Shown here piece after piece: positions 1 to 61,854 of a stretch of DNA of 64,000 nucleotides. Positions within the stretch are counted from its first letter, which is position 1, and every line of letters starts with the position of its first letter. The notes below the pieces were generated by a model that saw only the letters and a program-made list of their open reading frames with translations, was not told the DNA's origin and ran no database searches. The DNA comes from Isoetes taiwanensis. Its lineage: Eukaryota > Streptophyta > Lycopodiopsida > Isoetales > Isoetaceae. The DNA lies in the NCBI GenBank assembly GCA_021234155.1, contig JAJEKV010000005.1, positions 12,889,787 through 12,953,786 on the forward strand, written 5' to 3'. The position numbers and the translations under genes were made by a program.

Positions 1-3000
1 TGTCGTTGTGGGTCTCTTAATTTCTGCAGAACAGCTGGGAACTGAAATGCATTGCAGGGAGGTCTTCTCATTCTGCGTGTTGAAATGGACCATGGTTTTT
101 TTAGCGTCCGCGCTGTAAAAACCTATATGAAAATGCTCGAAACAACTCACTAAGCGTGGACCACCACCATGACCCTTGACGTTTGTTTTAAGCCTGCCAA
201 GCAATACAGCAATTAAAAATTAGTAGAAAGAAAACAAGGAAAATAAGTTAGCCCAGTAGTGTGGCGGTATAAACTTATACCACGGTTGCCTTGCTGTATA
301 AATTTATACCACGGCGGCAAGCCATATAAATTTATACAGACATTGCCTTGCTGTATAAATTTATACCACGGTTGTTCCAGCCTTTAAAATTTAAACCTCA
401 AGACAGATGTGGTATAAATTTATACCGTGGAGTTACCGTAAAAAAAAAGCGTTAAATGTAAAGCTTACCAAACGCAGTTTTCGAAGCCGACGTTACAGAC
501 CGCTCCCATAGGTTTAAGCACCGACATCGTCTGCAGGTCGGAATGAAAAATGATGACCCTCCAGTTTTCAGATGTCGTGACTTCTTTTAGGCCATCCAAG
601 AAAGAACGGACTTGCACGTGAGTGAAAGCCTCCTCGTCAAAAGCGCTATCCTTAATTTTGAAGCTATAAGGAATATCTGCAATGCATAATGTAATATTTT
701 GCTTGTCTAAAAGAGTCCCCAGCCTCGTGCAATCACCCTGAACAACCCTGTACTGGACGTCCTGACCAAATCTAGTAAATCTCTCATAAGTAGTGTCAAA
801 ACTGGAAGTGGCGACCTCTTTATCCTGTTCAATTGCCTTAAGCCTATGCCTCTCCTCCTTGGCCCTACGAACCAGGTTTAGAAATCCAGTTGGTAGCCCC
901 TTCTTCTTGTTCTGTAAGAATAATGTGAGACAAAGGCACAAACACAGAACATATTTTCTGCAAAACTACCCAGCCACTGAAGTTAACAGCGTGCTCTCTG
1001 ATGATACTATCTGTGGTGCAACTTGGGAAAGCTTGCACTCCTCCCAGTCCTCTAGGTTTAGCTGCTTCATTAACTCAGCCTGGCAGGTGACAATGTCTTT
1101 CTGACTGCAAAGGGAAAAATATTGTAAGACAAAAAAAGGTAGAAAAAAACACGGCATAGCAAGTGAGGCTTACGTCTTAGCTTCCTTGGCCATCTCGTCT
1201 AATGTGAATTCTTTGGCAACTACTTTTTCCAATAGGCGAACAAATATTTCTTTGCTTTTGAGATCCTGTAACTGCGTCCAGGGTACAATGCTCATATTTT
1301 TTTGTTTTGATTCACCACCTTTTTTTGGTTTCTTTCCTGCGGTGCTAGCTTGTTCTTTAAGCTCACCATCTTCGAACATACAAAAAATTCTCTCTTGAAG
1401 ATCCCACACCTGTAAATGGTCAAACGAAGTTTAGTGTTGAATGGCGTAAGAGAATGGGCACGACGACTAAGCACTGTATAAATTTATACCTTGCCCGGTC
1501 GCGGTATAAATTTATACCGTTCCTGGTCGCGGTATAAATTTATACCGTGCCCGGTCGCGGTATAAATTTATACCGTTCCTGGTCGCGGTACCGGGCACGG
1601 TATAAATTTATACCGTGCCCGGGCCAGGTATAAATTTATACCGTCACCAGGCTATTACACACTTCTAACCACGCTAAACATACTACAAAAGATTGAATTG
1701 AAGCTTTTACTTACTTGACCATCTCTGAAAGCGAGCTGAAAGTAGTTATCGTATTGTTTGACAGCCACAATGGGTTTCTTATCCGAATCATAACTGAGGC
1801 AGCACTCTGTCACACAGGCTTCTCGAAGCTCTTGAAGCTTGTTCTTTTGTTTTTTGAAGTCGTCTCCATGCACTTGTTTGAAATCCACGTACTCTCGGTG
1901 CATGAAGCGAATCTTGTCTATTAGGCTCATTTTTGGTCTGAAGTTATTGTCGAGATTGTGACTCACGGCACTGACTTTTGCCTCTTCGTCTGTTATGCCC
2001 ACGTAAATATGCGCTTCCACGCTTTTCCACACTTCGTTACGGCTTTCTTCCTTTGACAGTTCTTTTCTTGCCTTGTAACTGTGTGTGCCTCCAAGGACAT
2101 AATATGTGTAATCTTCGAAGTCTGCCTTTTTGTAATCTTTTAATTGGTTGCACTGACTTCTATCAACCATCACAACTAGTGGCGACACATGCGCATGAGG
2201 ATTCCTTCTCATTCTTTGCTTAAGGATAGCCACATGTGCCGCGTACAACTTTCGGACCTGAAGCACTCTGACCCCATCTTCATTTTTTGGTGGCCTCTTA
2301 ATAGTGCTTAATAGTGTCAAAGAAATGGCCTGCTTGAGGAGTTTGGTTTCATTTACGTGCTTTAGAATGGCACTTGACTTGTCTGAGGGCCGCACAACAA
2401 TATCAGCTCCAGGAGCTTTTTGTAGAGCTTCTGCTGACTCATCTATAGTCAAGGTTTTTGTGGTTCTTTTCTTTTTGGTAGGAGGCTGTGTATCTACTAC
2501 CAGGGAATGCTTCCTACCCTTTCCCTTTGGCACCACTGGTTCCTCCTCTTCTTCCTCTTCTCGTTCTGAAGCCTCGTCCCTTTCGACATCTTCTTGAGAA
2601 CGTGGGTATCAGAGACCCTTTACCAATTCTTTTTCTTCATAAAGTATTACTGAGGACAAAATATCCACTATGTCCTGTAAGGCAGGGTAAATTAGAAAGA
2701 TGACGGTATAAATTTATACGTGAAGCCACTAAGACAGACTTACATAGCCATTCTTGTAATTCTCCGCCATGTAATCATGGACGTCTTTAGGTCTGCACAT
2801 GCTTATGCGCAGCATTCTACTGTTCAGAACATAAAAAACTTCACCGCTGTCATGATTACACTTCAGCAAAATCTCATCTTCATTTCCAGTTGCAGTCAGT
2901 GTTATCATTTCCCCGGCGGGGTAATAATCATCTTTGGTAAATTTTCCCCTCTCTGAGTGGTGACACAAATACAGGTATGCCTCTGTGGGTTTGCGCTCTC

Positions 3001-3126
3001 TCGCACCCCTGTGCACGTACCACATCTGGTCTGACAATTCATATGTTTGTGGCTCTGGTGGTGCCGCCTTTGATGACTGGCCTCTCTGTGAAATACAGTT
3101 TTTTGCCTCTGTTTTGGACACTTTAA
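1..3126 (-). CDS. ParB-like / amino-methyltransferase-like spliced gene, locus A (3' end beyond window)
   Basis: Six exons can be threaded on the minus strand with matching phases at most junctions: 3126-2744, 2674-1715, 1409-about 1186, 1105-about 983, 911-469 and 193-1 (running off the window). Most junctions have clear GTAAG-type donors and pyrimidine-CAG acceptors; the 983/911 junction is uncertain. The second exon has a nuclear-type basic/acidic N-terminus and then a ParB/sulfiredoxin-like core (LGGTHSYKARKEL, cf. DGHHR.EA). The fifth exon has a methyltransferase-like stretch, VVQGDC followed by IADIPY at 666-680. This matches the (D/N/S)-P-P-(Y/F) catalytic motif of N4-cytosine/N6-adenine methyltransferases with one substitution, and the sixth exon continues WLK.N..G.G, as in that class. 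The protein probably recognises and modifies DNA in the nucleus. A single in-frame TGA lies near 2613 in exon 2, so this copy may be dead. A first exon upstream of 3126 is not resolved. A diverged homologue lies at 53,589-60,720. Confidence 0.66.
255..432. repeat. Palindrome cluster A1, GGTATAAATTTATACC, in intron 5
   Basis: About five copies or near-copies of the 16-bp perfect palindrome lie within the 275-bp intron 194-468 of the methyltransferase-like gene, at about 264, 296, 325, 350 and 410. The flanking exons contain none. Spacing is irregular, so this is not a simple satellite. Confidence 0.85.
1476..1643. repeat. Palindrome cluster A2 in intron 3
   Basis: Six copies of the same palindrome are spaced 25-45 bp apart inside intron 1410-1714, separated by GC-rich CCGGTCGCGG-like linkers. 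The linkers are themselves repeated, which suggests local amplification of motif plus linker. The neighbouring exons are free of the motif. Confidence 0.85.
2703..2720. repeat. Single palindrome A in a 69-bp intron
   Basis: One copy (GGTATAAATTTATAC) occupies much of the very short intron 2675-2743. That even this intron carries a copy supports deliberate or selected accumulation in non-coding parts of the gene. Confidence 0.7.
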
Positions 3127-3289
3127 CTGTACAAAAACTAGCTTAAAGGACCTAAAATGCACGCTATTTTAACCCTTTATTTGTGTCATTTGACCTTTAA
3201 AACTCAACATTAATGCTCAACTACAAAGGTTCAGGAAATTTTTTTAGACACTCGACACTTTACGAGAATAGAAGCCACAAACGTTGTCT

Positions 3290-4032
3290 TCCGTATAAAT
3301 TTATACCGAAAGTGTTGCGGAGCGGTATAAATTTATCGCCGAAGAGCAAAGCGGTATAAATTTATACCATTCGAGAACACTTTCGGCGGTATAAATTTAT
3401 ACGCCTCGGCCTGGCGGTATAAATTTATACCGTTCTCTAACGCTTTTTGAGCGGTATAATTTATACGCTTCGTCTTCGGCGTATAAATTTATACCGCGAA
3501 AGTGTCCTCGCGAATAGATAAATTTATACCGCTAGCTCGGCGTATAAATTTATACCGTTCAACACTTTCGATATAAATTTTATGGGGAAGACCCTTAGAC
3601 TCACCAGATTAAAAGAGGCGAGAAACTAGAATAGTACCGGAATTGAGACTTATGTGGCCATGGTCGGTATGGATTCGCTTATAGCTGCCGTGGAGAAGCA
3701 ATTTGGAGGGTATATAAGGCGCAGCTTTCGGCCTTCGACTCCTAGCGGATTATGTAGAAAATAGAGTGACCAAGCCCACGGGCTTAAGTACCTCTGCTAA
3801 GTGCCGTTTTAGGTATAGCGTTTCTCCATAAAGTTTCCAATACAAGTGTTCGTGAGTTTTTAGGTATAAATTTATACCGTTTACGTTCTATGTTGCCCTC
3901 CTCAGGTATAAATTTATACCATCTCCGTATAAATTTATACAACCGGCTTCAAGTTTGCCTTCTTTGTATAAATTTATACCATCCCCGTGTAAACTTTTAC
4001 CGATGCGCTCTTACGTGGTATAAATTTATACG
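3290..4032. repeat. Palindrome array A3 between the two divergent genes
   Basis: About sixteen exact or degenerate copies of GGTATAAATTTATACC lie between the methyltransferase-like gene (leftward) and the DUF7869-like gene (rightward), in two groups: 3290-3586 and 3862-4032. Spacers contain related words such as CGAAAGTGTT and its reverse complement. Every copy contains overlapping TATAAA-like words on both strands, so promoter activity is possible, but copies inside introns argue for a protein-binding role. The 3590-3860 stretch between the groups shows nothing else recognisable. Confidence 0.85.
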
Positions 4033-4054
4033 ATTGTGGCTTAACTTTTCGAGT

Positions 4055-5765
4055 ATGGCTCGAGAAAAAAGAAGCTGCAGAGCCTCCAACTCCCGATTCG
4101 CGGGCTTCCTCCCTGCAATGACATTCACACCTCCTCAACCGACACCGGGAAGTAGCCTCGAAAATTACGCCTCCGATATTCAAACCCCATTTCTGTTGAG
4201 TTTACTCCACGACCACCTCGGCTTCCACCACCGGTTCAATTTACTCCACCACACCACGCTCACGAGCGTCGTTTGCCCCCACCAATGCGTTTTACTCCAC
4301 CCACAGGGCTAGAGAGGTCGGACTACCTCCTCCACTTCATTTTAGTACGCCGCCCATAGTCCCACCGTAGGCTAAATCCCCAAGGCAAATCCGCCAACTC
4401 CATCCATTTTCGCTAAATGGTACTACGACAAGTGGGAGGCATCGGCCCTTGAAACTCACGTGTTCTCACGACGCTTCCGGGAGCTGGTCAACCACGCCAC
4501 CAACCTCGATTACTTTTTCCCGGAGAGAGGGAAAGCACCTCCCCAGGACTTGCCCACACCAAACCTCTCGGCATCTACAAGTACACCTCATGTTGATCTC
4601 GGACGAAGAAACACCTCATGTTGATCTCGGGGCGAGGACCTACCAAAGCCACAAGACTCCATGTTGAATTCAAAGCCCCGCAAGTAAGAATCTTAAGCGT
4701 AACTTACACAAGAAAGCATGTACACTCATGGGATGAGGCTCACTTGAGGGCAACACATACAAAGCATTGTTGTTCTCAACGTTGTTTGCTTAAGATTGGA
4801 CTAAAGGAATTGAGGTTGATTCGTGATAGTTCTGATTCAATGACTCGCTAGACCAAAGGGGCTACTTAGCCTTCAATATTAGGCGGATTATGGTGAGAAG
4901 TTTACTTACACGGTGGTGGCCACCCGTCTGTCAAATGGCCTTCAAATTGATTCATGCTTTAGGCGGCAGGCGACTTGACCCTTTGAAGAAAAGGCTTCAC
5001 AAGAATCCGGGCATTAATGACTCGCCATTGCGGAGGCATATCCGAATTCATGCCCTTCAATGTGTTTCACGGATGGAAGGTTTCTTTAAGGAGTCTTGCG
5101 AGAAACTCCCTAATGACCCCATGTACCACTTGAGTGACAACTTCACTAAACGTGAAGTCTACGATAATTATAAGGACATGTGTGTTGATTTGGAGAACGC
5201 CATGTTCCGCTACTCTTACTTCACTGTGCTCTGGAAAAAAGAGTTTTCTCGCGTGTCCATTCCGAGAAAGCACCGGATGTCTGTTTGTGCTACATGCTCT
5301 GAATTAAAAGCTCAGAGACAAAATGCAAGGACACTTCACACTAAAAGTAAGCTTCGAGGACGTGTTCTTGCCTAGTTCTACTTAAAAGTAGGTTCTTTCC
5401 TAAACATGTGTTTCATTTCAGATGCATTGAAAGAGAAACTGAATAAGCACAGAGAACAACAATCCTTATAAAGGAGAAAATTGACAAAACATAGAAAGAA
5501 AGCACTGGAGCAACCACTCAACTACATATCGGTTGTTATTGATGGAATGGACCAGAAGAAGACCACCCTACCACATTTTGTCAATGTGCCTAAGGATGCT
5601 GCTGAAGAAGATTTCATACACCTGCATGCGTTCGAAATTGGAGGGGTGCCAACCTTAAAAATCTGGTTAACCAAAGAAAAATCCTTACTTTTTAAATTTG
5701 GTCGGAACCTAGTTCCTCCAAAAAAAAAAATGGAGGCAAATGTTCTTTATATGGTAGAGGGATAG
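4055..5765 (+). pseudogene. DUF7869-like putative transposase gene, locus A (broken)
   Basis: The proline-rich start has FTPP repeats (4055-4360), followed by an open stretch with FAKWYYDKWEAS (4376-4620) and a probable donor near 4683. The body at 4890-5350 contains LWKKEFSRVSIP and VCATCSELK, a CxxC finger typical of this family. A likely intron at 5346-5420 is followed by VVIDGMDQKKTTLPHF (5536-5583). IDGMDQ.KT.LPH is the signature I know from DUF7869 proteins, a widespread eukaryotic family thought to be transposase-derived. An in-frame TAA lies near 5469, frames shift in the N-terminal part, and the expected downstream catalytic half is missing after 5765. It diverges from the methyltransferase-like gene across the palindrome array, and a homologue has the same partner in locus B. 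Family assignment is from memory of motifs. Confidence 0.6.
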
Positions 5766-8855: not shown

Positions 8856-8879
8856 ACCAATGGCGCTTCATTTATGCTA

Positions 8880-18770: not shown

Positions 18771-18779
18771 TAGTTGGCC

Positions 18780-20450: not shown

Positions 20451-20453
20451 CTG

Positions 20454-47900: not shown

Positions 47901-48355
47901 TCAACAGATCCTCATCTTCTATATCTGGCCCTTTAGGAATTGTTGCAAAGAACTCATCTATCACCTTATCATCCACCTCAAACTTGGAGAACTGAAAGAA
48001 CTCCTTTATCTCCTGCTGTTTGATTAACAGATTTCCTTTCCCATCTTTTACTTCTACTATACCATTGTTCAAAATTCTGTTTTTTGCTGTCCTATAGAAG
48101 AAAGCAGATCCAGCATCATCCATTTCATTAATATACTTACATTTACTCCTTACTGCCAAGCTCTTTGCTTCTGCTTCCTCTATCTGTTTAACCTTAATTT
48201 CCAGCTCTGATTCCATATCCTGCCAGGTCTGATTGTCTTTGTCTTGGAACAGTTTCCTCCTGAGTTCCCTCATGGCCTCATACACTTCTTGTTTCTCTTT
48301 CTTCCTCTTTAGATTCCACTGTTTTCCCCACTCCTTGATCCAGCATTTAATTTTC
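44926..48355 (-). mobile_element. 5'-truncated L1-type LINE (RT and zf-RVT), inserted in a DUF7869-like gene
   Basis: A 15-T run at 44,926 is the poly(A) tail in minus orientation. Reverse-transcriptase motifs appear in order: GKSPGPDGFQPEFY, AGQITLIPK, DWRPISLTNTTYKVLAKILA, FRRAYDTISW, RGVRQGCPLAPYLF and the catalytic QYADDTFVF (about 47,130). A shift near 46,940 leads to the thumb/connection part (IRKFIWQGTHKVAWG). A further shift near 46,540 leads to the zf-RVT region (IFSWLILHQGLVTNWRR, CPLGCGEIEYSNHVFQC). The endonuclease and ORF1 are missing because of 5' truncation at about 48,352. Frameshifts make it inactive. No clean target duplication could be matched. Confidence 0.85.
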
Positions 48356-49500
48356 TTCAACTTAGCACATAAATTGCACTTTGCAAAGTTGTTTGAAGTT
48401 GCTATGGTGACATGATTGAAATGCTTCTTCCATAACCTACTAAAGCTAGGTTGGGATATTAGAAGAATTCCCAATTCTCAAAGTAGGGAATTCACTTCTT
48501 CCAAACTACTCTTTTGAGTACAATGTGATGGCAACCTTTTCTCAACAACTGCTCTTCCCTTTTCATCCCTTCTGCTTTTGTGTGGCATAGACTCTGCATT
48601 GAAATCAATATATTTTTCAAATATCTCCCTGGCAGCCAAGATCCTAGCTGTTGGTCTCAACAAACCATTATTTCCATATAAAGCAATCATGTTCCCCTCT
48701 GCCTGTTTTTTTTTGCCAATTATGCCATGAAGAAGTTGGAATTGCATGGATATTCTGCCATGCTTTTGGACATATCCATTTGCCTAGCAACGGGTATCTT
48801 TTTCTGTTTGGGTTTCTTTCATCCTGAAGTGCATGCTCGAAGTTTGTGTACATGTAGGTCCTCCTCTCATCAACAGTGTACTCTTGAAAAGTGGCTCTTG
48901 CTTCCACCAATTGTTCTATTGTAAAGAATTGCATACAAGCACTCCAACAACAATCTGAGCCCCTAACCTTCACCATTGTCTCACGTTTGGTGTCACTAAT
49001 CAACTTGGCTCTTTTGCTAGGATAATGTCTGGCAACTGATACTTCTCCCCTTTTGCCTAGGTTTAGAGTTTCAACTGCCAATGGATATCAAGACAATCAT
49101 TGTCCCCAACAACCTCAGGCTCTAGAAAAATATAATCCTCCACAAATTGAACACTACTTATAGGCCATGCCATGATGCAAGGAACCTCCAATTGCTTGAC
49201 ACAACCAAAACATTCCTTGTCACCCAAACCTTTACCTTTCCAGTTGTCTTCCAATATCGAAATTGCAATACCAATATTGTCTTCCCCTAGCCTTTCATCA
49301 TTAACAGCTTGACCAGGATCTGCTAGCACAATGACTCCTTGGCCTACTATTTCCTTGTTGCACTTGTGCATGATTCTCACCTTCTTGTTCCTCCATTACA
49401 CCCTACTATAGAGGACTAATTGTTTTTCTTCAACATTCTTGCTAGGAGTTGGTTTTTCATTGATATTGCTCTTTTCAATATGTTGCACACCATCTTGAGT
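48352..49500 (-). pseudogene. DUF7869-like putative transposase gene, locus B (N-terminal part, cut by LINE)
   Basis: Reading leftward: YSRV, a stop, then HKCNKEIVGQGVIVLADPGQ to about 49,065. After a frame change come CCWSACMQFFTIEQLVEA, LLGKWICPKAWQNIHAI, ARILAAREIFEKYIDF and finally FSRLWKKHFNHVTI with KCNLCAKLK. The last part matches locus A (LWKKEFSRVSI, CATCSELK) and precedes the IDGMDQ region in that family. Here the LINE starts directly after CAKLK. Stops and shifts occur at about 49,388, 49,070 and 48,720. It is transcribed away from the ParB/methyltransferase gene of locus B, as in locus A. Confidence 0.6.
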
Positions 49501-49861
49501 TGGAGAGGCACCATTGACCTAGGCAAATTGCACCATTTTTAGTCAATGAGTAGGAAAAATTTATTACACCATAAGATAAGAAAAGTATGTACATTTATGG
49601 AATATGTAGAGGTAAATCAAATTTTTTTAAAAGCAAGAAATTCCTTGGAAATAGGTTTAATAAAGAAGAAGAAGAATAATAACAATGGGTGTAAACGAAA
49701 TCATTTAAAACAAGAATTTTCGTGGCAATAACAAGGAAATGACATTTATATAAATATATCCAAATATTAATTATCGAAAATTTAGCCTTCAGATTACGAA
49801 AAGACATATAACTGATAAGGTAGACGTGAGAATTTATTATCCATAATAATATACCCTAGAT

Positions 49862-49965
49862 GATATAGCTGGCGGGAATTTCGTACGCCTGGTGTGTTAT
49901 TTGAGGCAATCAATTATTCACGCTAATTTCTAATTAACCATATATAAATCCGGTTCATGCTCTCA
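49862..49965 (+). promoter_or_regulatory. Promoter-like module, copy 1, with motif B and TATA box
   Basis: TGGCGGGAA, a degenerate motif-B palindrome (TACGCCTGGTGTG), CAATCAATTATTCACGCTAATT and ATATATAAATCC occur in the same order as in copy 2 at 50,948-51,055. A start codon in good context follows at 49,988, consistent with a TATA-driven promoter controlled by the palindrome. Confidence 0.55.
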
Positions 49966-49987
49966 AGCTCCATTCCTTCCAAACGCC

Positions 49988-50280
49988 ATGAAGCGTTCGG
50001 CCTCAGCGTCAAACCTTCATGAAGAATCCGAGGTCTCCTCAAAGAGACGTCGGGTTGAAGAAGCCCCTCAGTTCCCCCCCCCTGATTGATTTTTTGTCCC
50101 AATTCTCCTCTGATTCCGATTCAGAGGATGAAGAGGAGGAGTTGGACGATCAGGATTCTCAAGAATTCCTGACCGCTCTGCTTCAGGGTTGGCTCGACCC
50201 TGAAACAGAGAATGAATTCTCTGAGGAGGAGGAGGAGTTCGACCAATTTTTACATGGTTGCAGGATGAACCAGGTTTGCA
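49988..50280 (+). CDS. Small acidic protein, first exon, frameshifted at a C run
   Basis: Translation from 49,988 gives MKRSASASNLHEESEVSSKR and runs into a stop just after a run of nine C (50,074-50,082). Shifting one base there opens a strongly acidic continuation (IDFLSQFSSDSDSEDEEEEL ... FSEEEEEFDQFL) up to a GT near 50,272. An acceptor at 50,355 would continue with TWKKNDVDPEW before a T run of over 30 bases. The basic start and acidic body resemble a nuclear chaperone or activation-type protein, but I do not recognise a family. The shift may be a real mutation or a homopolymer error. Confidence 0.45.
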
Positions 50281-50387
50281 TGGCTGCCTTTTTCTTTTTC
50301 TAATGCACCTTTCTTTCTCTTTTCTTTTCTAACCTCTCTTTCTTCTTTCTTGCAGACATGGAAGAAGAATGATGTAGATCCCGAATG

Positions 50388-50388
<1 letters not shown>

Positions 50389-50422
<34 letters not shown>
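50389..50422. repeat. Long T homopolymer
   Basis: A run of over 30 T interrupts the second exon of the small acidic gene. It could be a retroposed tail or a microsatellite expansion. Confidence 0.8.
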
Positions 50423-50423
<1 letters not shown>

Positions 50424-50947
50424 GACACGCCTACGGGCATTTTTTTCTGTGATATTTTGAAAAGCCTTCGAGCATCTACTTACAAGCTATTCTTGGCATC
50501 TGTACATATCAATTTTGAATGAAATCAAATAGTTTTCTTCACAAACATTTTCTTCAAACAGTTTTCTTCAAACAGTTTTTCTGTACATAAAAATATTTTG
50601 AATGAAATCAAACTGTTTTCTCCAAGCATTTTGTCTCCAAAGTGTTTTCTCTAAAATTTTGTCTCTGCATTTGTCTCAACAAAGTCTCGGGAACGCTATA
50701 AATCAACCACATGAGAAATCTCTGATTCATCACAGCAGTATAGGAAATTTTCCTATACGACCTAAAACAATTCCCCAACTCAACAAGTCATTTTTTAGCC
50801 TTGATAATTTTGCCTTTAAAATCATTTTTAATTTAGCCTATATAAAATTTCGAAATTCTTTTTTTTTTTAAATGCAATAAATGGAATAAAATGCCGTGAG
50901 AATTTATTGCATAAAATGCAATATTCTCCATATATACCATATACATG

Positions 50948-51060
50948 TCATGTCTGGCGGGAAGACCGTACACCAAGCGTGTTAATTCAAGCAATCAATT
51001 ATTCACGCTAATTTATTTCTAATTATGCCTATATAAATCCATTTCACGCTCTCAAAGTTC
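50948..51060 (+). promoter_or_regulatory. Promoter-like module, copy 2, with motif B and TATA box
   Basis: Diverged duplicate of the 49,862 module: TGGCGGGAAGACCG, TACACCAAGCGTG, CAATCAATTATTCACGCTAATT and CTATATAAATCC in the same order. The following 51,060-51,540 stretch has no clear coding region, only a short internal duplication of ATTAAAACCAAAAGCA..G (51,254 and 51,304). Confidence 0.55.
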
Positions 51061-51614
51061 CTACAATTTCTTCCTTTCTTCATACGATTTGTCGGTTGCG
51101 CTTCAGCTGTGTTTGCATCCGCCCTCCTAAAATCTTGGTGAGCAGATTTCTTTTCAGCAATGTTAGATGTTTGGTTTCGGCAATTCCTAACTTACTAAAA
51201 GACTCCGCCTTTTGTTCTGTAGCATCTGTAGCAGAGGACATCGGAGGCTCAGAATTAAAACCAAAAGCAGAGGACTAAGGTCTGCGAATCCAAAAGCCTC
51301 GGAATTAAAACCAAAAGCAAAGTCCTCCGTTCTTCGAATCCTTCCAGCCTCAGAACTCAAGGTTAGTTTTCTTTTAGTTTTAAGCTGCATCTCAATGGCA
51401 GGTTTAATCCAAGAAGACAAGCTTTTGCATTTGCTCGAGGCAGAGGAAGCAGATGATGTTTATGAAAACCAGAATAGTTTTTATAAACTTCATCTGCTTC
51501 TTTTTGTTTCGAGTAAATTCTTGAGTATCTGTTCCTGAATTAATCATGCTATTGCATGCAAGTTCTATTATGAATAAGTAGAAAGCATTAGAAAAATCTC
51601 AAAGATAATATTTG

Positions 51615-52108
51615 AAACACGCTAAGCGTGTTCCGAATACATGCTAACCTTAGCCTTGAATATGAATACATGCTCGGCGTGCATTCAGTAAAGAGAGAGA
51701 GAAAAAAAAAATATGTACAGATAGATAAGTAAATAGATAAAGGCCAGACAATTATTTACACGCTAATATGAATACACGCTCGGCGTGCATTCAGCAGAGA
51801 GAGAGAAAAAAAAAACATGTACAGATAGATAAGTAAATAGATAAAGGCCAGGCAATTATAGATAAAGGCCAGGCAATTATTTAAATAATTGCCTGGCCTT
51901 TATCTATTTACTTATCTATCTGTACAGGTTTTTTTTTCTCTCTCTCTGCTGAATGCATGCCGTGCGTGTATAGTTTTTCCTATATAGCAGTTTACACGCT
52001 GAGCGTGCAAACATTTTTATCCCTAGTTTCAACTTTTAAGTTAAACACGCGGGGCGTGTCTCTTAGTTTCTAAGTTTATAAATAACTAAATATAACACGC
52101 CAGGCGTG
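51615..52108. repeat. Palindrome cluster B1, CACGCCAGGCGTG family
   Basis: Copies with a variable centre (CACGCT.AGCGTG, CACGCTCGGCGTG, CACGCTGAGCGTG, CACGCGGGGCGTG, CACGCCAGGCGTG) occur at about 51,620, 51,670, 51,777, 51,962, 51,993, 52,048 and 52,096. The last four lie within 200 bp upstream of the start codon at 52,141, in the position of promoter operators. Confidence 0.8.
51662..51972. repeat. Direct plus inverted duplication forming a foldback
   Basis: A unit of about 90 bp (motif B, GCATTCAG, GAGAGAGA, A run, TGTACAGATAGATAAGTAAA, AAGGCCAG.CAATTAT) occurs directly at 51,662 and 51,768. It occurs again as the reverse complement at 51,888-51,970, around the centre AATTATTTAAATAATT. The transcript would form a hairpin of about 90 bp. 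Confidence 0.85.
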
Positions 52109-52140
52109 AATACTGATACTCTGCTAACTTCCTATTGATA

Positions 52141-52717
52141 GATGCCAAGTTACATTAATCACCCGATTGATGACGAAGATGCATTGGAATTACATTTGGG
52201 GCAGCAATCACACAGCCCAGCTCCAGTTTCGGCTCCAAGCTCCAGTCCGGTTGAACCGCAGCCGAGCACCAGTCCGGCTGGAGCACCAGTCTTGCAACCC
52301 CTACAGTACATGGATCAAGTAATGATGATGGCAGCAGAGCGCAGGGCAATTATAAATCTGGGCTCTGAGACCCTTGCAATCTCACGGAGGCTGGCCCTCT
52401 TATCTGATCACTTCGATCATGCAGTACATGCATTGATCGAGAGTGAATCTCGCAACCGTCAGCTCGAGATTCAAAATGAGGAGCTGCGTTTTTTAGTGGC
52501 TAGCCTCTATGCCCGGATGCCCCAACACGAACCACTACTACAGGCGGTATACGATGCAATGGAGATGGCTCAACCAATGGAGCAGGAGATGGAGCAGGAG
52601 GAGGAGCAGGAGGTGGAGGTGGAGCTAGAGCCTGGGGTTTTTGCTGGGGTTTTACCTGATCCATTCACTATGCCCTGGAATGGAAATGGGAGTATCGATA
52701 GCCAAGCTACTCAGTAG
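52141..52717 (+). CDS. Coiled-coil protein with Pro/Ser-rich N-terminus, unrecognised
   Basis: An intact frame of 191 codons starts MPSYINHPIDDEDALEL. It has a Ser/Pro-rich segment (residues 25-57), a helical coiled-coil-like region (about 65-135, with RAIINLGSETLAISRRLALL and ESRNRQLEIQNEELRFLVAS), a Glu/Met repeat (EMEQEEEQEVEVELEPG) and a short Asn/Gly tail. It is one of the few undamaged frames in locus B, and its upstream region carries four motif-B palindromes. It could be a dimeric DNA-associated regulator encoded by the element. Function is unknown. Confidence 0.6.
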
Positions 52718-54099
52718 ACTGGGCTTGAAACAGTAGATTGTGCTTGAAACAATCTGGGATTTTGTATGTCTGGTTTATCCAGATTATATACAATTGTAAA
52801 CTTTTTCCAATTAATACAACAAATTTTGTCTACTTCTATATTTCTACAATGTAATACATATTACATACCTTTTTTAAACTGGTTTTTTGGCCATGCAACA
52901 AATGTTCCAACACTTTCTCCAACCGTATCCCCACCGGGGTGTCTGCGAGGTAAAGCTTCATCCGTAGCGCAGCAGTTAATCACTGTAACTCGGACATACT
53001 TATCCCCGAGCGGAATTCCATGACAGTTTGCAGTCGGATCGATGGAGTCGATCTTGCATAATCCTACTTTCCTTTTCTGATTTGTAGTTAACATGAAACA
53101 TTCATCTTCGACACTGCAGACAATTGCCTATTCAGACACCTTTATTGGAAATTATTGTACAAGCTATAGGAATGAGATACTTACCAGAATTCTGTAACCA
53201 TTCTTGAGAAGCCGATTCGAGTTCTCGAAATCACAGGCGCTATGGAAACGCAGGCGGTCGGGAAAAATTCGAGTTAGAAGAAAGCTTAGGTTAATTACAT
53301 TTTGGCAGGATAAATATAATCAATGAAAGAACACGGTAGATTGGTTTTTAAAAACTCAATGAAAGAAGTCGGCGGACGGGTTCTTTTTTTTTTTGAAAGT
53401 GAATCTTCGTCATTATTATTTTTATGTGTCAAGAATATTTCGAAACTGCATATTGTGTTTTCTTGAAATTCAAATTTCTCTCAGGTAGAAAACGCTATTT
53501 CTCATACAGGTAGAAAAAGCTATTTCTTCGAGCAACTCGAGCGCTTATCCGAGCGACCTTGCGACTCTGTTACTAGGCGATTCCGGAGATGTCTACTAAA
53601 ACCAGAGGTGGCCGAAGCGGATGGGGCCGAGGAAGCGGTGGCAGAGGAAACTCAAAACCCGGCTCTTCTCAAGTTTCAGAGGACGTTGAAACCCCTATTC
53701 AAGGTATTTAATTTGCCTTGCTGAATACACAGTGTGTGGAGAGTATTATGCATTGCATGAATTTGAGTTATTTCCTTGCCTTCAGTTAATATGGTTTGCA
53801 TGAATTTGAGTTATTATGCTTTGCATGAATTTAAATTATTACCTTTAGTTAATGCTCTGATTGTCTGTTTTTTAGGACATAATTTTGCTCTGTTTTTATA
53901 GAATATAGTTCTTAGTAGTTTTTAACAGAGGGGTATACACCTATTTAGAGCTGGAGGTTTGACAGTTAGAGATAGCCGTGTTCAATGAGGTTAAATAGTG
54001 AGAAATATGGATTCATAAAGGGTACGTAGCTTAAAATGTGGATGCATACTAATTTAGCTTCAAATTCACGCATAGCATGGTATACAGTAAGAGCTACAA

Positions 54100-54152
54100 A
54101 CACGCCAAGCGTGAATTGTACTAATTTAGGTTCAAATTCACGCCAAGCGTGA
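54100..54152. repeat. Two palindromes of family B in intron 1
   Basis: CACGCCAAGCGTG occurs twice, at about 54,101 and 54,140, within the 499-bp intron 53,704-54,202, and not in the flanking exons. Confidence 0.8.
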
Positions 54153-55375
54153 TCTCTTGTTCTGGAAAATACAATAATCCCAATGTTCATCTTCTTTTGC
54201 AGTGCCCAAGAGGAAGAAAACCCCTAATAATTTGGGGTCTATTCCTGGTAAGAAACCAAGGGTAGACGACCCAGATATAGTACCATATGATCTCACATTA
54301 GATGATGAAGGGCCGATTCTTATAGCAACCACTGACCCTGCGTGCCCTGAAGAGGAAATGGACGAGGGCGCCGAGTGGTACGTTGACCTTGATAAGACAA
54401 ATGGCAAGCTCGACTTAACTCTCTTCTCGAGGAAAAAGGAAGCAGACAAGATGACCAAACAAGGGATCCTAATCTCTTGTGAGGAAGAGGATGACACCAA
54501 CTGCAAATTGCTCTTGGAGATTACACATAAGCAGAAGAAATATCTGCTCAGACTTACTCACTGTAGAGCTACTGCATACAAGGATACGTTCATGAGGACA
54601 GATGTGAACGGTGAGACATGTTTTAAGTATGGCCCACCAATGTAGCAGTTACGCCAGTATCTATTTGCCAAGGGGTTACAGCTGTGCGTAGAGGCATGTT
54701 CAATAAACCGACACAAAGTCACTATTTGCAGCAAGCTAGGGAATTAGCTGACTTGAAAGCTTCTAAGAGGGTCCTAAATCTAGGGAAGGATGTTCTTCCT
54801 GCAGTTGTCGAAGGTATGGAGGCATCTGTTTTTTAGAATAAACAGGACAGGGTGGCGCAGCTAGAGGCCATGAACAAGCTGAATAAGTACTCTGACCATT
54901 ATCCATTGGGTCTTAAGGAAACTTTTGCGATCCATGTGAAGTCCCTCATCCGTTCACCAAGCTCCATTTATGTTAGCAGAAGATATGATCCTGCACATGC
55001 CATGGAGATTGTTTAGAGCATGATTAGTAATCCAGGTCAAATGCCTATGCCAGCGGATGTGTTACCTTGGGATATGATCTCGAACAAGCCTGTTGTGTGG
55101 ACGAACTTCGAGGAGTTAATGTTAAATGATAACATTAAATTCGTCATCATCGACGGGCAGCATTCTGTTGAGGCACAAAAGGCCCTCATCAGGCAGGCAG
55201 AACAAACGGGCCAAAGCGTGTTCTACAATCACTATGCGTATAGGAGGTGTCATCTCTTGGATGCCAATACTTCACCTGCAGATTTGGCTGAGATTATTGC
55301 AACTTTGAATGAAATGGGGAAGACATTTCTATACAAAAGATAATTGACTGCATTAGGATGTTAGCATTTTAATCT

Positions 55376-55685
55376 TCACGTCAGGCGTGCGTTCAAATGA
55401 AACCAATTCACGCCAGGCGTGCTTTCAAATGAAACCAAATCACGCCAGACGTGCTTTCAAATCAAACCAATTCACGCCAGGCGTGAAATGTTAAAGCACC
55501 TGGCGTGAATTGATTTGATTTGAAAGCACGCCTGGCGTGATTTGGTTTCATTTGAAAGCACGCTTGGCGTGAATTCAACCGATTCGAACGCACGCCTGGC
55601 GTGAATTGCATTGGTATTTAATTCATTTCACGCCAGGTGTGCTTTGAGGTTGATCTCTTCTATTGAAATCGCGCCCGGCGTGTTT
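55376..55685. repeat. Palindrome array B2 and intronic foldback
   Basis: About ten copies of CACGCCAGGCGTG or one-base variants lie in the non-coding interval between the ParB-like exon and the next exon. The linkers (CTTTCAAATGAAACCAA and complement) are arranged as a large inverted repeat centred at about 55,490, with arms of about 90-95 bp (55,388-55,580). Confidence 0.9.
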
Positions 55686-56544
55686 CTTGTCTCGATAATC
55701 GATTCAATGCTCAGACTACGTGGAGCAACCGCCACCGGCCAACAATGGGTGGAATATGGCTTCCCATTACCCATCGCATGTATGGTCAAAGTCCGAGGCT
55801 TTCAAGCTGTTGGAGCCGGACTGACATGCGCATGGAACAACTATACAGGAGAAGAAGAAAACTGCAAGAAAATCAAAGAAAAAAGGTGGTGATGACATTG
55901 CAGATCCTTCTGAAAGCTCATCTAGCAGGTCAGACCCAACAGACTCGTATAAGATTGTGTTTTGTAAGGAGGCAGTATGGCAAAAGTGGAATGAATTCTA
56001 GGACGCTTATGCACAAGAGAAGCTGCCAGATACTATGGGTAGGGTGCCTCCTGTTGATGTAAGCATCTTTGACTTGAATATGACAGAGATGAGAAAGACT
56101 CAGGGGCTAGACGACGCTGAGACCATTTGGGTTTTAGACCAGTGCTTAAAGAAGGAAGTCTTATACAAGAAGAGTGCTTTCACTAAGGATAGGATGTCCT
56201 TCATTGAGTGCTGCAGCCATGTGAAGGATGTACGTACCATGGAATAATTTAATGGCTAAGGTTAGCCAAATTGCTAAATTTTGGGTTTTTTTTCCCAAAA
56301 AACGGCTAAACTAAATGAGAAAAATGGGAAAAAAAAAAGTTTTTAGCCCAAAATTTTCCCACCAATAGTCCAACCTAGGGCAGAATCGCCAAGAGGCCGC
56401 CGCCGGAGTAGCTCCAACGAGTCCTAAATCGCTTAGCCTAAGAAGCTAAGGAGCATGAGAATTTGGTGGATTAGCTAAGATGCATCTACCATAGAAAGTA
56501 TGAATCTTGAAAAATCGCCATGTAGGCTACTGTTTTTTTTTTCC

Positions 56545-57085
56545 TTAATCCCGTGTATTTGCAATTCCAGGATCATTTTTCAAGCATTCAAGAAGGATTC
56601 GGCCACAAAACTTCAAGAACATTTCTCTGCAAATAGGATTTTCGTTGGTTTCTCATTTCCGTAGACCGATCGATTGTGTTGCTAGTATCGTATCTACTTT
56701 ATCTTCTATAATTATTTTTAGCTTAAATCGCGGTATGCGTAGCTTCATATCTCTTATTTTTTAGGTTGATTATCCGCTTGCATCCGGAGAGACTCATAGA
56801 TCCGTCTATTTTCTTAATCCAGGTGTATTTGCAATTCGGGCTCATTTTTTAAGCATCCAAGGAGGATTCGCCACAAAACTTCAACGCCCTTTCTCTGCAA
56901 ATACGATTTACGTTGATTTCTCATTTTCGTAAAGATCCGCACATGTTGCTCTAGTATCGTATCTATTTTAACTTCTACAATTATTTTTATCTCAAATCTT
57001 GTTTGTAGCTTAATATCTGTTATTTTTAGCTTAATTATCATTTTGCATCGGAAGGACTCATAGATCCGTCTATCTAATTTAGGGC
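56545..57085. repeat. Diverged tandem duplication (about 270 bp) inside the hAT element
   Basis: The block from GTGTATTTGCAATTC through CATAGATCCGTCTATTT recurs next to itself with many substitutions (about 56,548-56,815 and 56,823-57,083). Confidence 0.8.
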
Positions 57086-57299
57086 TTCAACCTCAACGCT
57101 TGAATGAAAAATCTAGAAAATTTATGATCTGGGCATATCATAGCCATTCTTACGCCTCCTTATATCATTTGCACTCTTATATTTTGAAGAGCGGATAAAT
57201 TACCAATCGACTTGATATAGAAAGCGGTAATCAGTTACCCAAATGCTTTGGAATGCTACCCGTCAGATTGTTATTAAGGTTCCTAAATAAAATCATATT

Positions 57300-57740
57300 T
57301 AGGAATAGTAAGATAATTGAGTGCCCCGTTAGAGGATCATGAATGTGGGCTTAACTTCATTCGGTTGGGACTTTGATCTTTGCATTGCAAGATGAGGAAA
57401 CAGCCAGAAGCTATCATCCGCCAAGAACGCATGCACTGGCCGCAAGAAGAGATGGGAAAATGCTAACCCTGTTGGATTGTGGGAGCATCCTTTATGCCCT
57501 CCGGGCATTCGCCAGATTCGATCGGCAAAATGAGCATTCATGAATCTCTATTAGTAGGGTATGTTGAGTGTGCGTGAATTACAAAGATGCTTTCAGCTTG
57601 TACAAAAGAATGCACATTGATTGACATGTATGGCAAAGGTGATACCATAGAGAAAGGACGAGAAATATACATTCAAGTTGCGTAAACGGGTTTAGAAGGA
57701 ATACTTTATCTTTGGAAATGCCGTGATGGACATGTATGCT
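57300..57740 (+). pseudogene. PPR-protein fragment carried by the hAT element
   Basis: Around 57,570-57,735 the plus strand, in shifting frames, reads KMLSACTKECTLIDMYGKG, IEKGREIYIQVA (stop) TGLEG and GNAVMDMYAK. The phrases DMY.K.G, KG.EI and VMDMYAK are typical of PLS-class pentatricopeptide proteins, which bind organellar RNA. It is a short, stop-containing remnant. The 57,300-57,540 part may be another piece but is not clear. Confidence 0.5.
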
Positions 57741-57905
57741 AAACAGGTGGCCCCTTTATCGAGGTTGGGAATGTTTTTGGAGCAGTTTTTGAGTTCGGAA
57801 GGAATGCCCAAAGTGAGATTATTGTTGTGAAGAGACAACGTTTTAAGAGCAGAGCAAAGCAATTCGAATAGCCCTTTTGGAATTTCTTCACAGCCTATGC
57901 CTAAG
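57740..57905 (-). pseudogene. Leucine-rich-repeat fragment carried by the hAT element
   Basis: The minus strand reads EEIPKGLFELLCSALKTLSL, HNNNLTLGIPSELKNCSKNI, a typical plant LRR (L..L.L..N.L...IP..L..). It is only about two repeats long and has no kinase or membrane segment. Confidence 0.55.
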
Positions 57906-59133
57906 GGTACAAAATGTTATGCATATCTGCAGACATGCGCATAACCGTATTAGGTTTGGCAATAATAATAACAGATGGAAAGCATGCTTCTCATGGAAAG
58001 CGTCGAGGTGTAAATGATTTTCTACCGACTTCATTTTTGTATGGAATGTCCGGTAATTCATTTGGAAACCGTTGCTCAGAGATGTGGCAGAGATTGTGGA
58101 ATGACCCTCATGGTTCATCATGTAATCATAACCCTCATGGTTCATCAAGTAATCATAAAAGGCCATATACAGTAATTAGTTAGTGCTTTATAACTAGTTG
58201 ACTTCTTCGCCGCAGTCTCTCTATTCTTCTCTATTCATCATGTAATTATAAAGGCCTTATACAAAGATGTAATTTGTTAGTGCTTTTTCTTGGTTGACTT
58301 CCTTGCCCACTTTGATACCATGATGAGAAAAGTGAAGTATAAACATGAAGATGACGGAGAAAGAAATAACAAAGAAAGGATGGCCGTAAAATAAAGACTG
58401 GTAATAAGACCAAATGTACAACATTATGAAACCTGCAAGGAACCAAATCTAATTCTGTTTCTGACCTCAGTTCCTCCGACACGGTTTATTTTATCACGGT
58501 GTTTTTATTTTAATTTATTATGTTGTTTGCAGATGCGCAAGGTGGTGTTGGATTTGTTCAAGCTTTGCCTAGATGCCAAGACTATGATTAATACTAACAA
58601 GGGAAAAATTATATATGTTATTAAATGATTGGGTATGCAGAATAAGTTTGATTATTGTGTAATTTGGTAAATATAGCTACAACATAGCCACAACATTCCA
58701 CACAGCAAAAAAAAACATAAGAAACATCCAATTTAGTGTAGACATAAGAAACATCCAATTTAATGTACCTAACAACGCCTAAATATATTCACAATTCTAA
58801 CGATAGACATACACTTGTGTAATTTGGCAAAAAAAACAATCGATAGTTATATTCATAATTGCATACATTTTAATATAATTTAACAAGGACATATTTTAAA
58901 CCTAATAGATATTAGGACCTCCCTCTTCTTCCTCCAAATAAGAATTCCACAACTTTAAACTAGTCATAAGCACGTTGAGTTATTTTCATTTCACCTATTT
59001 TTCATTTTTATTGATAATGCGATCATTCTTGAAAAGCTTTATAATACCTATTCTTGCTTCTAGATGCACGATTGCAAGAAACATCTGACAACTTGTTTTT
59101 CGGAATCTACAGGACATACAGATTCACACGGAC

Positions 59134-59379
59134 ATGCAGATGAAGCGTCAAACGGGCCTTAAGCAGTTCTTGTCTAAGAGGGTGGATTCGGTTGGTACCT
59201 CGACCTCTTCTAGCACTCAAGTTCCTCAAGAATCGTTAAGCAAGGATAGTGCGACTGGTCATATTCCTTCTGAGAATGTGGAAACTGAGGTTCCTCCATC
59301 GTCATCTAGTCAGAACGAGCCTATGTTCAAGTGTAGCCAAATGATAGAAAGTTTTGGGCAAAAAAAATATGAAATTTAG
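59134..59379 (+). CDS. Short Ser-rich ORF resembling a hAT N-terminus
   Basis: This 81-codon frame starts MQMKRQTGLKQFLSKR and continues Ser/Thr-rich. Basic starts of this type precede the zinc finger in many hAT transposases. It ends before any domain, within the hAT element near its right end, and is probably a remnant of the parent transposase. Confidence 0.35.
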   Translation: MQMKRQTGLKQFLSKRVDSVGTSTSSSTQVPQESLSKDSATGHIPSENVETEVPPSSSSQNEPMFKCSQMIESFGQKKYEI

Positions 59380-59516
59380 CCAAACGAAAGAATTCATGAT
59401 TGAGAAAAATCGCAGAATTTAGCCAAGTGTTAGAAACTTCAGGCGTTGATTTGAAGCAAATTTAGCTAAAGTTATCCTGGCTACACTAAAATATAGGTGT
59501 AGTAATTTATTCCCTG

Positions 59517-60720
59517 GTACGTACAATGAAGTCAGCTGTAAGAGCTGAGTTACAAAGGCTATCAGGGGATGTGGCATTATCTAAAATTGGATTGCTGGAC
59601 AAATACAAGGTCAGTAATGATGACATCAAGAAGTTTGTATTCTGGTCAAAGGACTTCCTAAAGAATTGGAAGGCTAAAAATACAAAACATAAGGAGACTC
59701 TACCCCCTAAGGTACTGGCCGAGTTGAGAAGAAAAGTGGCCCTTGTGAAGAAGATTACTGGAGAAGAAGACACTGTCCAGTATTCAGTCTCCATTGGGTA
59801 CAAAGGTCTCTTGCCAGAATCAACTTCTTGCCTTAAAAATATATCACTCTTTGTGTTGGATAGCAGGGGTGGAGAGGAGATATGGGCATGAACCAGAAGG
59901 ACTACAGCAGCTTCTTTACCAACTGTATAAGATTGACAACTGAGAGGTCCTTCACTATTGTCATCGTTTGTCCTTCGTGAGTCACACATGCATGCACTAT
60001 CCGCCGCTCATGATCCGAGTGCCTCAAAGTTATTAGGAAGGGATGCCTAATATATGATGTTAAGGATAATGAGCTGCGAACAGAACGGAAGATGGCACAT
60101 GTGATCTTTATTATGATAGCCATGCTGTCAGACGAGGAATATGATATTGCTAAGGCCAAGGGTGACAATAGCAGTGCATGGGAATGTTTTCTTCTAGATG
60201 ATCCAGACTTAAGAACTATATTCTATCATACCGGATCAGGATCGGTCCGTAAGTGATGAGTCGAGAAGAGGATGAGGATGGGACCCCCCTCCTAAGTGGG
60301 GAAATCAAGCACGATCTACAAACTAAGGAGAAGGGCCCCTTAAATAAAAAATGGATTTCCCCGCCTATGGCTGCTTACCTCGCCGGAGGCATTTGCTCCA
60401 ATTGATACAACCCGCTTGGAGCTTCATGTTGAGGTTATATTGCCGAGAGGCTCTTATGGGTGTTAGAAGATGTCACTGCTTTGTGAATGATGAGCAGGCC
60501 AAAGACTTTCTTGAACCATTCCTCATGCATGTGCTTGCCAAATCTCCTAAAGGCCCTTATGGCAACCTGAAATCATCAGCAATCAAAAGTCTCGTGACCG
60601 TCCAATTCGAAAGTGGACGATGGTTCCGTGAGGGAACTAGTAATCCCGTACCGATAAGGAAAGCAATGAACAAATGGGCTGCTAAACCGGCTGCTCAAAG
60701 TAATGTGATCGGCTTAACTT
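59517..60720 (+). pseudogene. ParB-like / methyltransferase-like gene, locus B, 3' part (after hAT insertion)
   Basis: The frame resumes as MKSAVRAELQRL after the target duplication. It then aligns with the locus A methyltransferase-like exons: VQYSVSIGYKGL / VQYRVVQGDCTRL, NISLFVLD / NITLCIAD, LTTERSFTIVIVCPS / VTTSENWRVIIFHSD, and AWECFLL...TIFYHTGSG / CFEHFHIGFYS. The catalytic (D/N/S)PP(Y/F)-like motif is lost. Frameshifts occur near 59,885 and 60,430, with stops at 59,969 and 60,027. The 60,350-60,720 part is in mixed frames (MGVRRCHCFVNDEQAKDFLE) and would be the C-terminal region that lies outside the window in locus A. Confidence 0.5.
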
Positions 60721-61029
60721 AGGGAATATCCTTGCTTCCCCCGGGGTGATGAAAGCAACAATAGAGTAGATTCACGTGTTAACAATGAACTAATTGACAG
60801 GGGCAACCAAACCGAAGGCAACCAAGGCTTACTCTAGTGATTCGCTGGGTTTGCCAAATGAATAGTAAACTAATGTCGGTTTGTGAAGGACGCAGATGGA
60901 ACTAATAGAAAATAACAATTCTAACAAATGGAAGAGCAACGAAGATTAAGGGTGGCGAAGGGGAGAATGATTACCGACGGCGGCAAATAAACCGAAGATG
61001 ATAGGTATGGCCTTGCCCATCGAAATCCC

Positions 61030-61162
61030 ATACCACGCGTGATTTAATTTATATTACCTTTGAATTAAATCGCCAGCGCGTGCTTTGATTATTTTTCGTT
61101 GTCAAACTAAATCACGTCGAGCGCGATTTGGTTAAGACTAACTCAAATCACGCTTGGCGCGT
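61030..61162. repeat. Palindrome cluster B3 upstream of the phosphatase-like pseudogene
   Basis: Four degenerate members (CACGCGTG, CGCCAGCGCGTGC, CACGTCGAGCGCG, CACGCTTGGCGCG) are spaced 35-45 bp apart just before the NIF-like coding region. Confidence 0.6.
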
Positions 61163-61217
61163 TTGTATTGTTTGTGTTATCGTATCTTGTTGACCAGATA
61201 CATGTTTGATGTTTCAG

Positions 61218-61854
61218 CTTGCATTGCGTTTCTAAGAAGGTTGTGGTGTTTGACCTAAACAGAGTCCTTTGCAAGACTTTTCCGAAAAATAAAGTGGCTA
61301 GAGATCAGTTTCATTAGACACCAGTAGAATCAAACACCAAGTGGATCTATCATGGTCGCGACTTGAAGGAGATGCTAGATGAGGCATTCAGGTTATTTCG
61401 AGTTGGTATTTGATCATCCATGGAACTAAGGAACATCAAGGATACTTTGGAGGCACTGGGGGAAATGCGTAGACATTGGTTGACCTTTTGGGATCAGAAC
61501 AAATGAGTGAAGTTCACTAATCCCAAGGATCCAACAGGCAAGCCTATCTTCATCAAACACTTGAGTAACATGATGGATGAACTTGGTATCGAGAATAAGG
61601 ATGATATAATCATAGTGGATGATGATGCTCTCAAATGCTTCTACAATCAAACGCAGGCCCTGAATCCACCATCTTACGATCCAAAAAACTTTGCGACAGA
61701 TGATTTTCTGGTGAAGTTTGTGTCTATTATGAATAATTTGGCTATGGGGATGACGGTGGGTGAAGTGTTAGATTCATACCCAGAACTGGATAGAACGGCT
61801 GACATGGAACCACACCTTGTTAAGTATGTGGAAAAACATAAATTGATCCCTTAA
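61218..61854 (+). pseudogene. FCP1/NIF-like HAD phosphatase pseudogene
   Basis: After an acceptor (TTTCAG), one frame reads KKVVVFDLNRVLC, stop, DEAFRLFRVGI, stop, SSMELRNIKDTLEAL, FWDQNK, stop, PIFIKHLSNM, DDIIIVDDDALKCF and LNPPSYDP, with VEKHKLIP at the end. This is the order of the NLI-interacting-factor (CTD phosphatase-like) HAD domain: DxN.V(L), IWSS, WDQ and V(D)D. The second catalytic Asp is Asn, as in several plant NIF-like proteins. Three in-frame stops (61,318, 61,411, 61,504) keep phase, so decay is by point mutation. It shares the motif-B flank with the other locus B genes. Confidence 0.65.

Follow-up and report, generated by a model that had tools for sequence, protein, structure and literature searches.

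Private palindrome arrays at two divergent gene pairs in Isoetes taiwanensis: possible remnants of related DNA transposons with a ParB-like accessory protein

Why should a ParB-like gene lie opposite a transposase-like gene twice within a single stretch of a land-plant genome? The question is raised by 64,000 nucleotides of Isoetes taiwanensis (assembly GCA_021234155.1, contig JAJEKV010000005.1, positions 12,889,787 to 12,953,786 of the forward strand; sequence without gaps), termed the window in this study. A sequence-only reading had predicted two such loci, and both were found at about the predicted coordinates and in the divergent layout described. At locus A (1-5,765), the accessory gene is encoded on the minus strand and the transposase-like partner on the plus strand; at locus B (48.36-60.7 kb), the ParB-like gene is found on the plus strand and the partner on the minus strand. 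Two palindrome arrays, a long interspersed nuclear element (LINE) cutting the partner gene of locus B and a hAT-like element in the coding stretch of the same locus had escaped that reading. Taken as a whole, the view that two related large DNA transposons, now decayed, are represented by A and B, each equipped with a self-recognising ParB-like accessory protein and private palindromes, is assigned a probability of about 0.5.

The most informative feature of both loci is their private palindromes. Palindrome A (GTATAAATTTATAC, often inside GGTATAAATTTATACC, which occurs as a full 16-mer in 10 copies) was found 25 times with up to two mismatches, all copies being located within 267-4031, compared to an expectation of 0.35. 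Palindrome B (CACGCCNGGCGTG) was found 20 times at the same tolerance, all within 49884-61161, with 0.39 copies expected. As many copies were not reached in any of 100 shuffles (maximum 2 for A and 3 for B), and at this tolerance each motif is confined to its own locus in the whole 64 kb. A scan of the window for 9-mers occurring at least six times per 4 kb returned the two loci, a tandem duplication at approximately 40-44 kb, a minisatellite near 63 kb and nothing else. The array of locus B is more decayed than that of locus A (5 of 20 versus 21 of 25 copies exact). Among the 42 mismatches of palindrome B (27 copies, up to three mismatches), 30 are C-to-T or G-to-A, which fits deamination; ordinary transition bias could explain a good part of them.

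Both arrays are confined to DNA predicted as noncoding (Table 1). From intron 5 to intron 1 of the locus A accessory gene, palindrome A is present in 5, 0, 0, 6 and 1 copies, and none was found in the 2.2 kb beyond the partner gene. None of the 25 copies overlaps a predicted exon (56 of 5,765 rotations do equally well), and none of 23 retained copies of palindrome B overlaps coding sequence (70 of 13,497 rotations). Of the 27 hits obtained when three mismatches are allowed, the latter test covered 23, among them all 20 with no more than two; the hits at 50949, 55085, 55495 and 61029 were dropped. Exons, and above all those of locus B, were delimited by visual inspection of stops and splice signals. 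At both loci, the ParB exon is followed by an intron (presumed at locus B) with a large palindrome cluster, the intron positions seeming non-identical.

The palindromes might spread by themselves as hairpin or minisatellite repeats, with no cognate protein, and be tolerated wherever coding sequence is left intact. The arrays are indeed tandem in parts, with a period of 28-29 bp at 1476-1590 and 267-374 and of 32 bp at 55375-55485, some neighbouring copies of palindrome A share their spacers as tandem repeats do, and purifying selection on the genes would also give exon avoidance. However, many spacers of palindrome A are unrelated while its core is exact in most copies, each motif stays in one locus at up to two mismatches, and a ParB-like gene is present at both, so that this explanation is regarded as improbable. 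Pairwise identity is 0.85-1.00 in the 14 core columns of palindrome A, 0.42 and 0.65 at the adjoining bases and 0.22-0.48 further out. Since the core columns are conserved and the outer ones are not, the copies are not merely one amplified unit; a binding site that is maintained would show just such a core, shared beyond its surroundings, and palindrome A is a candidate for one.

The predicted resemblance of the two partner genes proved to be homology. Their local alignment, made with joined pieces picked by eye beforehand, scored 71 compared to a shuffle mean of 34.2 and a maximum of 66, and none of 1,000 shuffles was as good, likewise with looser gaps. The partner of locus A carries LWKKEFSRVSIP, CATCSELK and VIDGMDQKKTTLPHF, after which the frame is lost, and that of locus B carries LWKKHFNHVTIA and CNLCAKLKK, at about which it is cut by the LINE. 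Both were named DUF7869-like in the sequence-only reading, a putative likeness without a Pfam match to back it: no partner piece matched Pfam DUF7869 at E up to 1 (for A alone, up to 10), both genes being truncated and the presence of the model in the library unchecked. That the same pair recurs, and not as chance neighbours, is backed by the divergent layout, by the homology of the partner genes and most strongly by one private array per locus, and less firmly by the accessory proteins.

In CACTA/EnSpm elements, subterminal repeats serve as transposase binding sites. The chief rival explanation accordingly takes the palindromes as sites of the transposase-like partner, with the ParB-methyltransferase gene unconnected. 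Homologous partner genes at both loci and the position of 13 of the 25 palindrome A copies between the genes, on the 5' side of the partner, are in line with this. The other 12 copies, by contrast, are found in introns of the ParB-methyltransferase gene with none beyond the partner gene, the copies are spread over noncoding DNA in general (with the element ends not located, a subterminal position is still conceivable), and the densest array of locus B, with nine copies, comes after the ParB exon. This explanation is therefore considered unlikely, if the strongest of the alternatives.

The accessory gene of locus A is spliced, with six exons joinable on GT/AG signals. Its protein has the ParB-like box YVLGGTHSYKARKEL followed by RVVQGDCTRL, NITLCIADIPYSF and VIIFHSDLQ, an order that matches the one in phage amino-methyltransferases. 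At the junction of exons 4 and 5 (970 to 911), the most obvious donor breaks the frame; because of this uncertain fourth junction and the in-frame TGA near 2610, the copy may already be broken. A tblastn search of locus A against phages gave six records (E 0.1-9), five of them annotated as methyltransferase or ParB-like and one as hypothetical. A profile of nine phage ParB-methyltransferase proteins scored 42.8 on locus A, compared to 32.8 for the best of 100 shuffles. After removal of the three phage proteins found via locus A, the composite still reached 37.1 (best of 200 shuffles, 26.8), the family having been chosen through locus A's own matches even so. With this reduced profile, exon 5 alone scored 27.5, the top value among 40 open reading frames (ORFs) of at least 120 amino acids in the window (runner-up 20.9). 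For these profiles, seven of 60 listed phage records were taken, one protein (L006, a split gene) was left out and the tblastn matches H3, H5 and H6 were not used. As to a beta-class amino-methyltransferase, the region of motif IV gave a profile match at locus A and none at locus B (14.4).

The best detectable relatives of the locus A protein are these phage fusions, in which a ParB-like part is likewise followed by an amino-methyltransferase (GD..L, D.PY). They differ in being only approximately 400-470 amino acids long, in belonging to prokaryotic viruses and in having DPPY in those read, whereas the locus A gene contains introns and codes for ADIPY and for long additional regions. No ParB family match was found for locus A in Pfam or PHROG, all Pfam matches being sub-threshold; single-protein queries gave no relatives in IMG/VR (five queries) or in prokaryote genomes (one query). 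Exact paired-palindrome patterns were not found in viral contigs (motifs A and B) or in prokaryote genomes (motif A). Structure prediction without alignment was too poor for use, with a mean predicted local distance difference test value of 33.7 for the ParB piece of locus A and 43.1 for its methyltransferase exon.

The accessory coding stretches of locus B extend from 54199 to 60722 and contain several in-frame stops. The box FVIIDGQHSVEAQKAL was matched weakly by Pfam DndB (E=0.0046, below the cut-off) and PHROG ParB (E=0.069) on overlapping residues, and a (D/G)GxH/R box is found in the accessory proteins of both loci. The sequence of locus B is broken at the expected place of motif IV. The hAT-like element sits inside this coding stretch, and the frame is open across the reconstructed empty site. 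The in-frame stops had also been considered as proof of cytosine deamination; this was dropped, as any stop codon can arise in that way. Of the predicted accessory pair, the spliced gene for a ParB-like protein with a methyltransferase is upheld at locus A, while at locus B a broken ParB-like gene was found and its putative methyltransferase is without profile support.

Table 1. Positions of the features of loci A and B and of neighbouring elements in the window
Feature	Position	Strand	Remarks
Locus A exon 1 (first recognisable)	3126-2744	-	Open frame, splice signals
Locus A exon 2, with ParB-like box YVLGGTHSYKARKEL	2674-1715	-	In-frame TGA near 2610; 317-amino-acid open frame, splice signals
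Locus A exon 3	1409-1174	-	Open frame flanked by GT/AG signals
Locus A exon 4	1104-970	-	Donor uncertain; open frame flanked by splice signals
Locus A exon 5, amino-methyltransferase segment, motif IV-like ADIPYS	911-469	-	Profile match, phage ParB-methyltransferase proteins
Locus A exon 6, methyltransferase	193-1	-	Continues past window start; splice acceptor GGCAG/GCTT (slash, exon border), in frame with exon 5
Palindrome A cluster, intron 5	267-425		5 copies
Palindrome A cluster, intron 2	1476-1641		6 copies
Palindrome A, intron 1	2706-2719		1 copy
Palindrome A clusters between the divergent genes	3293-4031		13 copies
Locus A transposase-like partner (LWKK.F..V.I, C..C..LK, VIDGMDQKKTTLPHF), truncated	4836-5762	+	Open frames 4836-5372 and 5472-5762
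MULE transposase with SWIM finger	23976-25630	+	Apparently unrelated to loci A and B
LINE (RVT, zf-RVT) inserted in locus B partner	44926-48357	-	Poly-T 44926-44940; junction 48357 by eye
Locus B transposase-like partner	49395-48358	-	Cut by LINE after C..C..LKK; junction by eye
Direct repeats of ~110 bp	49857-49966, 50942-51055		Both copies contain TATATAAATCC and one degenerate palindrome B (2 and 3 mismatches)
Palindrome B cluster	51618-52108		7 copies; last copy 33 bases before ATG of ORF at 52142
Intact ORF of 191 amino acids	52142-52714	+	Behind cluster of 7 palindrome B copies
Palindrome B	54067-54151		3 copies, of which one has 3 mismatches; shortly before start of locus B ParB-like gene
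Locus B ParB-like gene, 5' stretch, ParB/DndB-like box FVIIDGQHSVEAQKAL	54199-55340	+	Stop-broken; weak Pfam DndB and PHROG ParB matches
Palindrome B array	55377-55682		9 copies (up to 2 mismatches), presumed intron after ParB exon
Locus B ParB-like gene, continuing coding stretch	55721-56237	+	Includes first copy of target-site duplication
hAT-like insertion, terminal inverted repeat CA[T/G]GGAATAA	56238-59516		Apparently non-autonomous; 8-bp duplication GTACGTAC at 56230-56237 and 59517-59524
Locus B ParB-like gene, 3' part (VQYSVSIG..NISLFVLD)	59517-60722	+	Broken; putative methyltransferase without profile support
Palindrome B, degenerate	61029-61161		Three copies (2-3 mismatches), upstream of NIF-like pseudogene
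NIF/FCP-like phosphatase pseudogene	61230-61854	+	By eye; degenerate palindrome B copies just upstream

The element type had been called undescribed, which is partly wrong. According to the section on Sola1-1_Ec32 in a report on the brown alga Ectocarpus, this large DNA transposon (21.5 kb, Sola1 transposase) encodes a 1,104-amino-acid ParB-like and amino-methyltransferase protein on the strand opposite the transposase (PMC12477816). There, the authors suggest that such proteins may bind and epigenetically modify the sequence of their own transposon, the passage naming no target, and, with references 50 and 51 (the latter being Petroll 2025), point to similar transposon proteins of green and red algae; the string "Palindrom" is absent from the main text (PMC12477816). 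Loci A and B resemble Sola1-1_Ec32 in a ParB-like/methyltransferase-type gene (methyltransferase at locus A only) on the strand opposite the transposase, and differ from it in that the host is a land plant, candidate target sites are visible and the superfamily of the partner is unproven. Reference 50 of the algal report is said to be Iyer 2011. What is added here is the candidate target sites and the apparent land-plant host; the pairing itself is already published in kind. Among the matches listed for titles and abstract starts of open-licence PMC articles, no report was found of palindrome arrays with such genes or of the pairing in land plants. DNA-modifying enzymes of the TET/JBP type are described, in the part of the literature consulted, as carried by fungal transposons (PMC12730594).

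A second precedent comes from the VANDAL elements of Arabidopsis, whose VANC proteins are described, in the relevant passages of two papers, as binding arrays of short motifs in the noncoding parts of the element that encodes them and lowering methylation there, the motifs differing between related elements (PMC5735166, PMC10398659). Element-specific motif arrays in noncoding regions are found at both loci of the window as well. The VANDAL motifs are 8-9 bp long (e.g. YAGTATTAY) compared to 13-16 bp for the palindromes, and the accessory protein here is ParB-like, with a methyltransferase in A. In Pfam scans, the pieces of neither locus matched a MULE transposase, in which they differ from VANDAL, and no VANC protein match was obtained (library content for a VANC model unchecked).

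In bacterial ParB/parS systems, a ParB-type protein is accompanied by a nearby set of palindromes of approximately 16 bp. At loci A and B, no partition ATPase was seen, no replicon is involved, the sites are found in introns and between genes, and binding is a matter of analogy. Because it is encoded beside arrays of a private palindrome, the ParB-like protein is suggested to read that palindrome. In the mechanism proposed, a transposase-like gene is paired with a divergent accessory gene for a ParB-like protein, fused to an amino-methyltransferase at least in A, and a palindromic site private to each element occurs in its promoters, its introns and the gap between the genes, coding sequence being nearly free of it. 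The ParB-like protein would recognise, as a dimer, the palindrome of its own element; a palindrome would suit a dimer and leave both strands open to methylation. The methyltransferase part might then place N6-adenine or N4-cytosine marks on or near the palindrome, in promoters and introns, and these marks could shield the noncoding DNA of the element against host silencing or time transcription; access of the transposase is another alternative. With protein and palindrome changing together, A and B would cease to recognise each other. Since VANC binds the motifs of its own VANDAL element and lowers methylation there, self-recognition protecting against silencing is favoured over transcription timing or transposase access, an argument by analogy.

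The most specific form of this proposal is that each ParB-methyltransferase has its cognate site in the palindrome of its own element, in a eukaryotic parS-like self-recognition with co-diverging specificity, which writes N4-methylcytosine or N6-methyladenine on control regions in a land-plant nucleus; it is put forward tentatively and is the more doubtful part. For the published idea of self-modification, the two arrays provide exact candidate targets and two specificities in one genome, and an A-type protein on A versus B sites would be a simple cross-test. If true, a sequence-specific self-recognition of transposons made of prokaryotic-type parts would exist beside VANC, and amino-methyl marks would have a way into the nuclear DNA of plants. 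The claim of a transposon with its own DNA-modifying accessory protein agrees with the algal precedent in its general form; the ends of an element were not found, and the methyltransferase is backed in A only.

Several observations weigh against two related transposons with self-recognising proteins. The palindromes and the ParB-like protein are linked by co-location alone. No convincing terminal inverted repeats or target-site duplication of an element were found around locus B, which is broken by the LINE, and the window does not reach the left end of A. When three mismatches are allowed, palindrome B is matched 27 times in 48-62.5 kb and 8 times over the first 48 kb; because of the latter, some of the weakest hits are taken as chance, and the dropped hit at 55085 falls in a coding stretch. 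In beta-class amino-methyltransferases, motif IV is (D/N)PP(Y/F/W) and the S-adenosylmethionine-binding motif I comes after it. Motif IV of locus A is D-I-P-Y (ADIPYS), not PPY, and the position of motif I falls beyond window position 1. The ParB box of locus A compared with the phage ParB part scores 17.8, which is noise level (best alignments of shuffles average 16.9). For locus B, the methyltransferase domain reaches only 15.5 with the full and 14.4 with the reduced phage profile.

Furthermore, direct homology of the two accessory proteins was not significant by BLAST, by Smith-Waterman alignment with shuffles or by HH-align. For the full composites, 123 of 1,000 shuffles were as good; tested by part, this was the case for 138 (N-terminal), 26 (ParB), 10 (middle), 165 (methyltransferase) and 64 (middle plus methyltransferase) of 500 shuffles. 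Without the hAT-like insertion, 129 and 65 of 1,000 shuffles were as good with standard gaps and 49 and 11 with looser gaps, the 11 stemming from an alignment with the wrong methyltransferase register. The HH-align score of 22.2 was exceeded by 3 of 60 shuffles. The likeness in the 3' part (VQY.V..G, NI[ST]L...D) was read by eye. Judged from these alignments, a relation of the ParB and middle parts is suggestive at best, and that of the methyltransferase part not even suggestive. Non-homology of the accessory copies in a profile comparison, named beforehand as the finding that would speak against the sequence-only reading, was neither established nor excluded by these non-significant tests.

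The gene of locus B might accordingly be unrelated to the ParB-methyltransferase gene of A, two unrelated elements adjoining members of a common transposase-like family. The lack of significant similarity and of a methyltransferase profile match in B would be explained in this way, whereas the ParB/DndB-type box in B, the shared divergent layout and the presence at both loci of a private array of so unusual a kind would not, and this is the least probable of the alternatives considered.

Further genes may belong to element B. Palindrome B clusters precede both the ORF at 52142 and the NIF-like pseudogene, which suggests that both are parts of this element, the pseudogene possibly being a further cargo gene. 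The 191-amino-acid ORF had no match in Pfam (E up to 0.01). Positions 61507-61851 were matched best by Pfam DUF433 (E=0.00024), followed by NIF (E=0.0022), both below the cut-offs. The direct repeats at 49857-51055 look like a duplicated promoter. A target duplication of the LINE was not found.

Besides the MULE transposase, an integrase zinc-binding remnant is present in the window; together with the LINE and the GT/AG-spliced gene, these suggest plant nuclear DNA. A 468-amino-acid ORF (37398-38801, minus strand) has a C-terminal histone H3 fold (Pfam Histone, E=3.3e-27; PDB H3, E=6.5e-28) preceded by approximately 340 residues, largely acidic and proline-rich, and represents either a captured histone or an uncommon H3-like fusion. 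The tandem duplication (39285-44911) is 2.8 kb long and mostly 95-100% identical at ORF level. The minisatellite (62945-63219) consists of 3.7 copies of a G+C-rich 78-bp unit.

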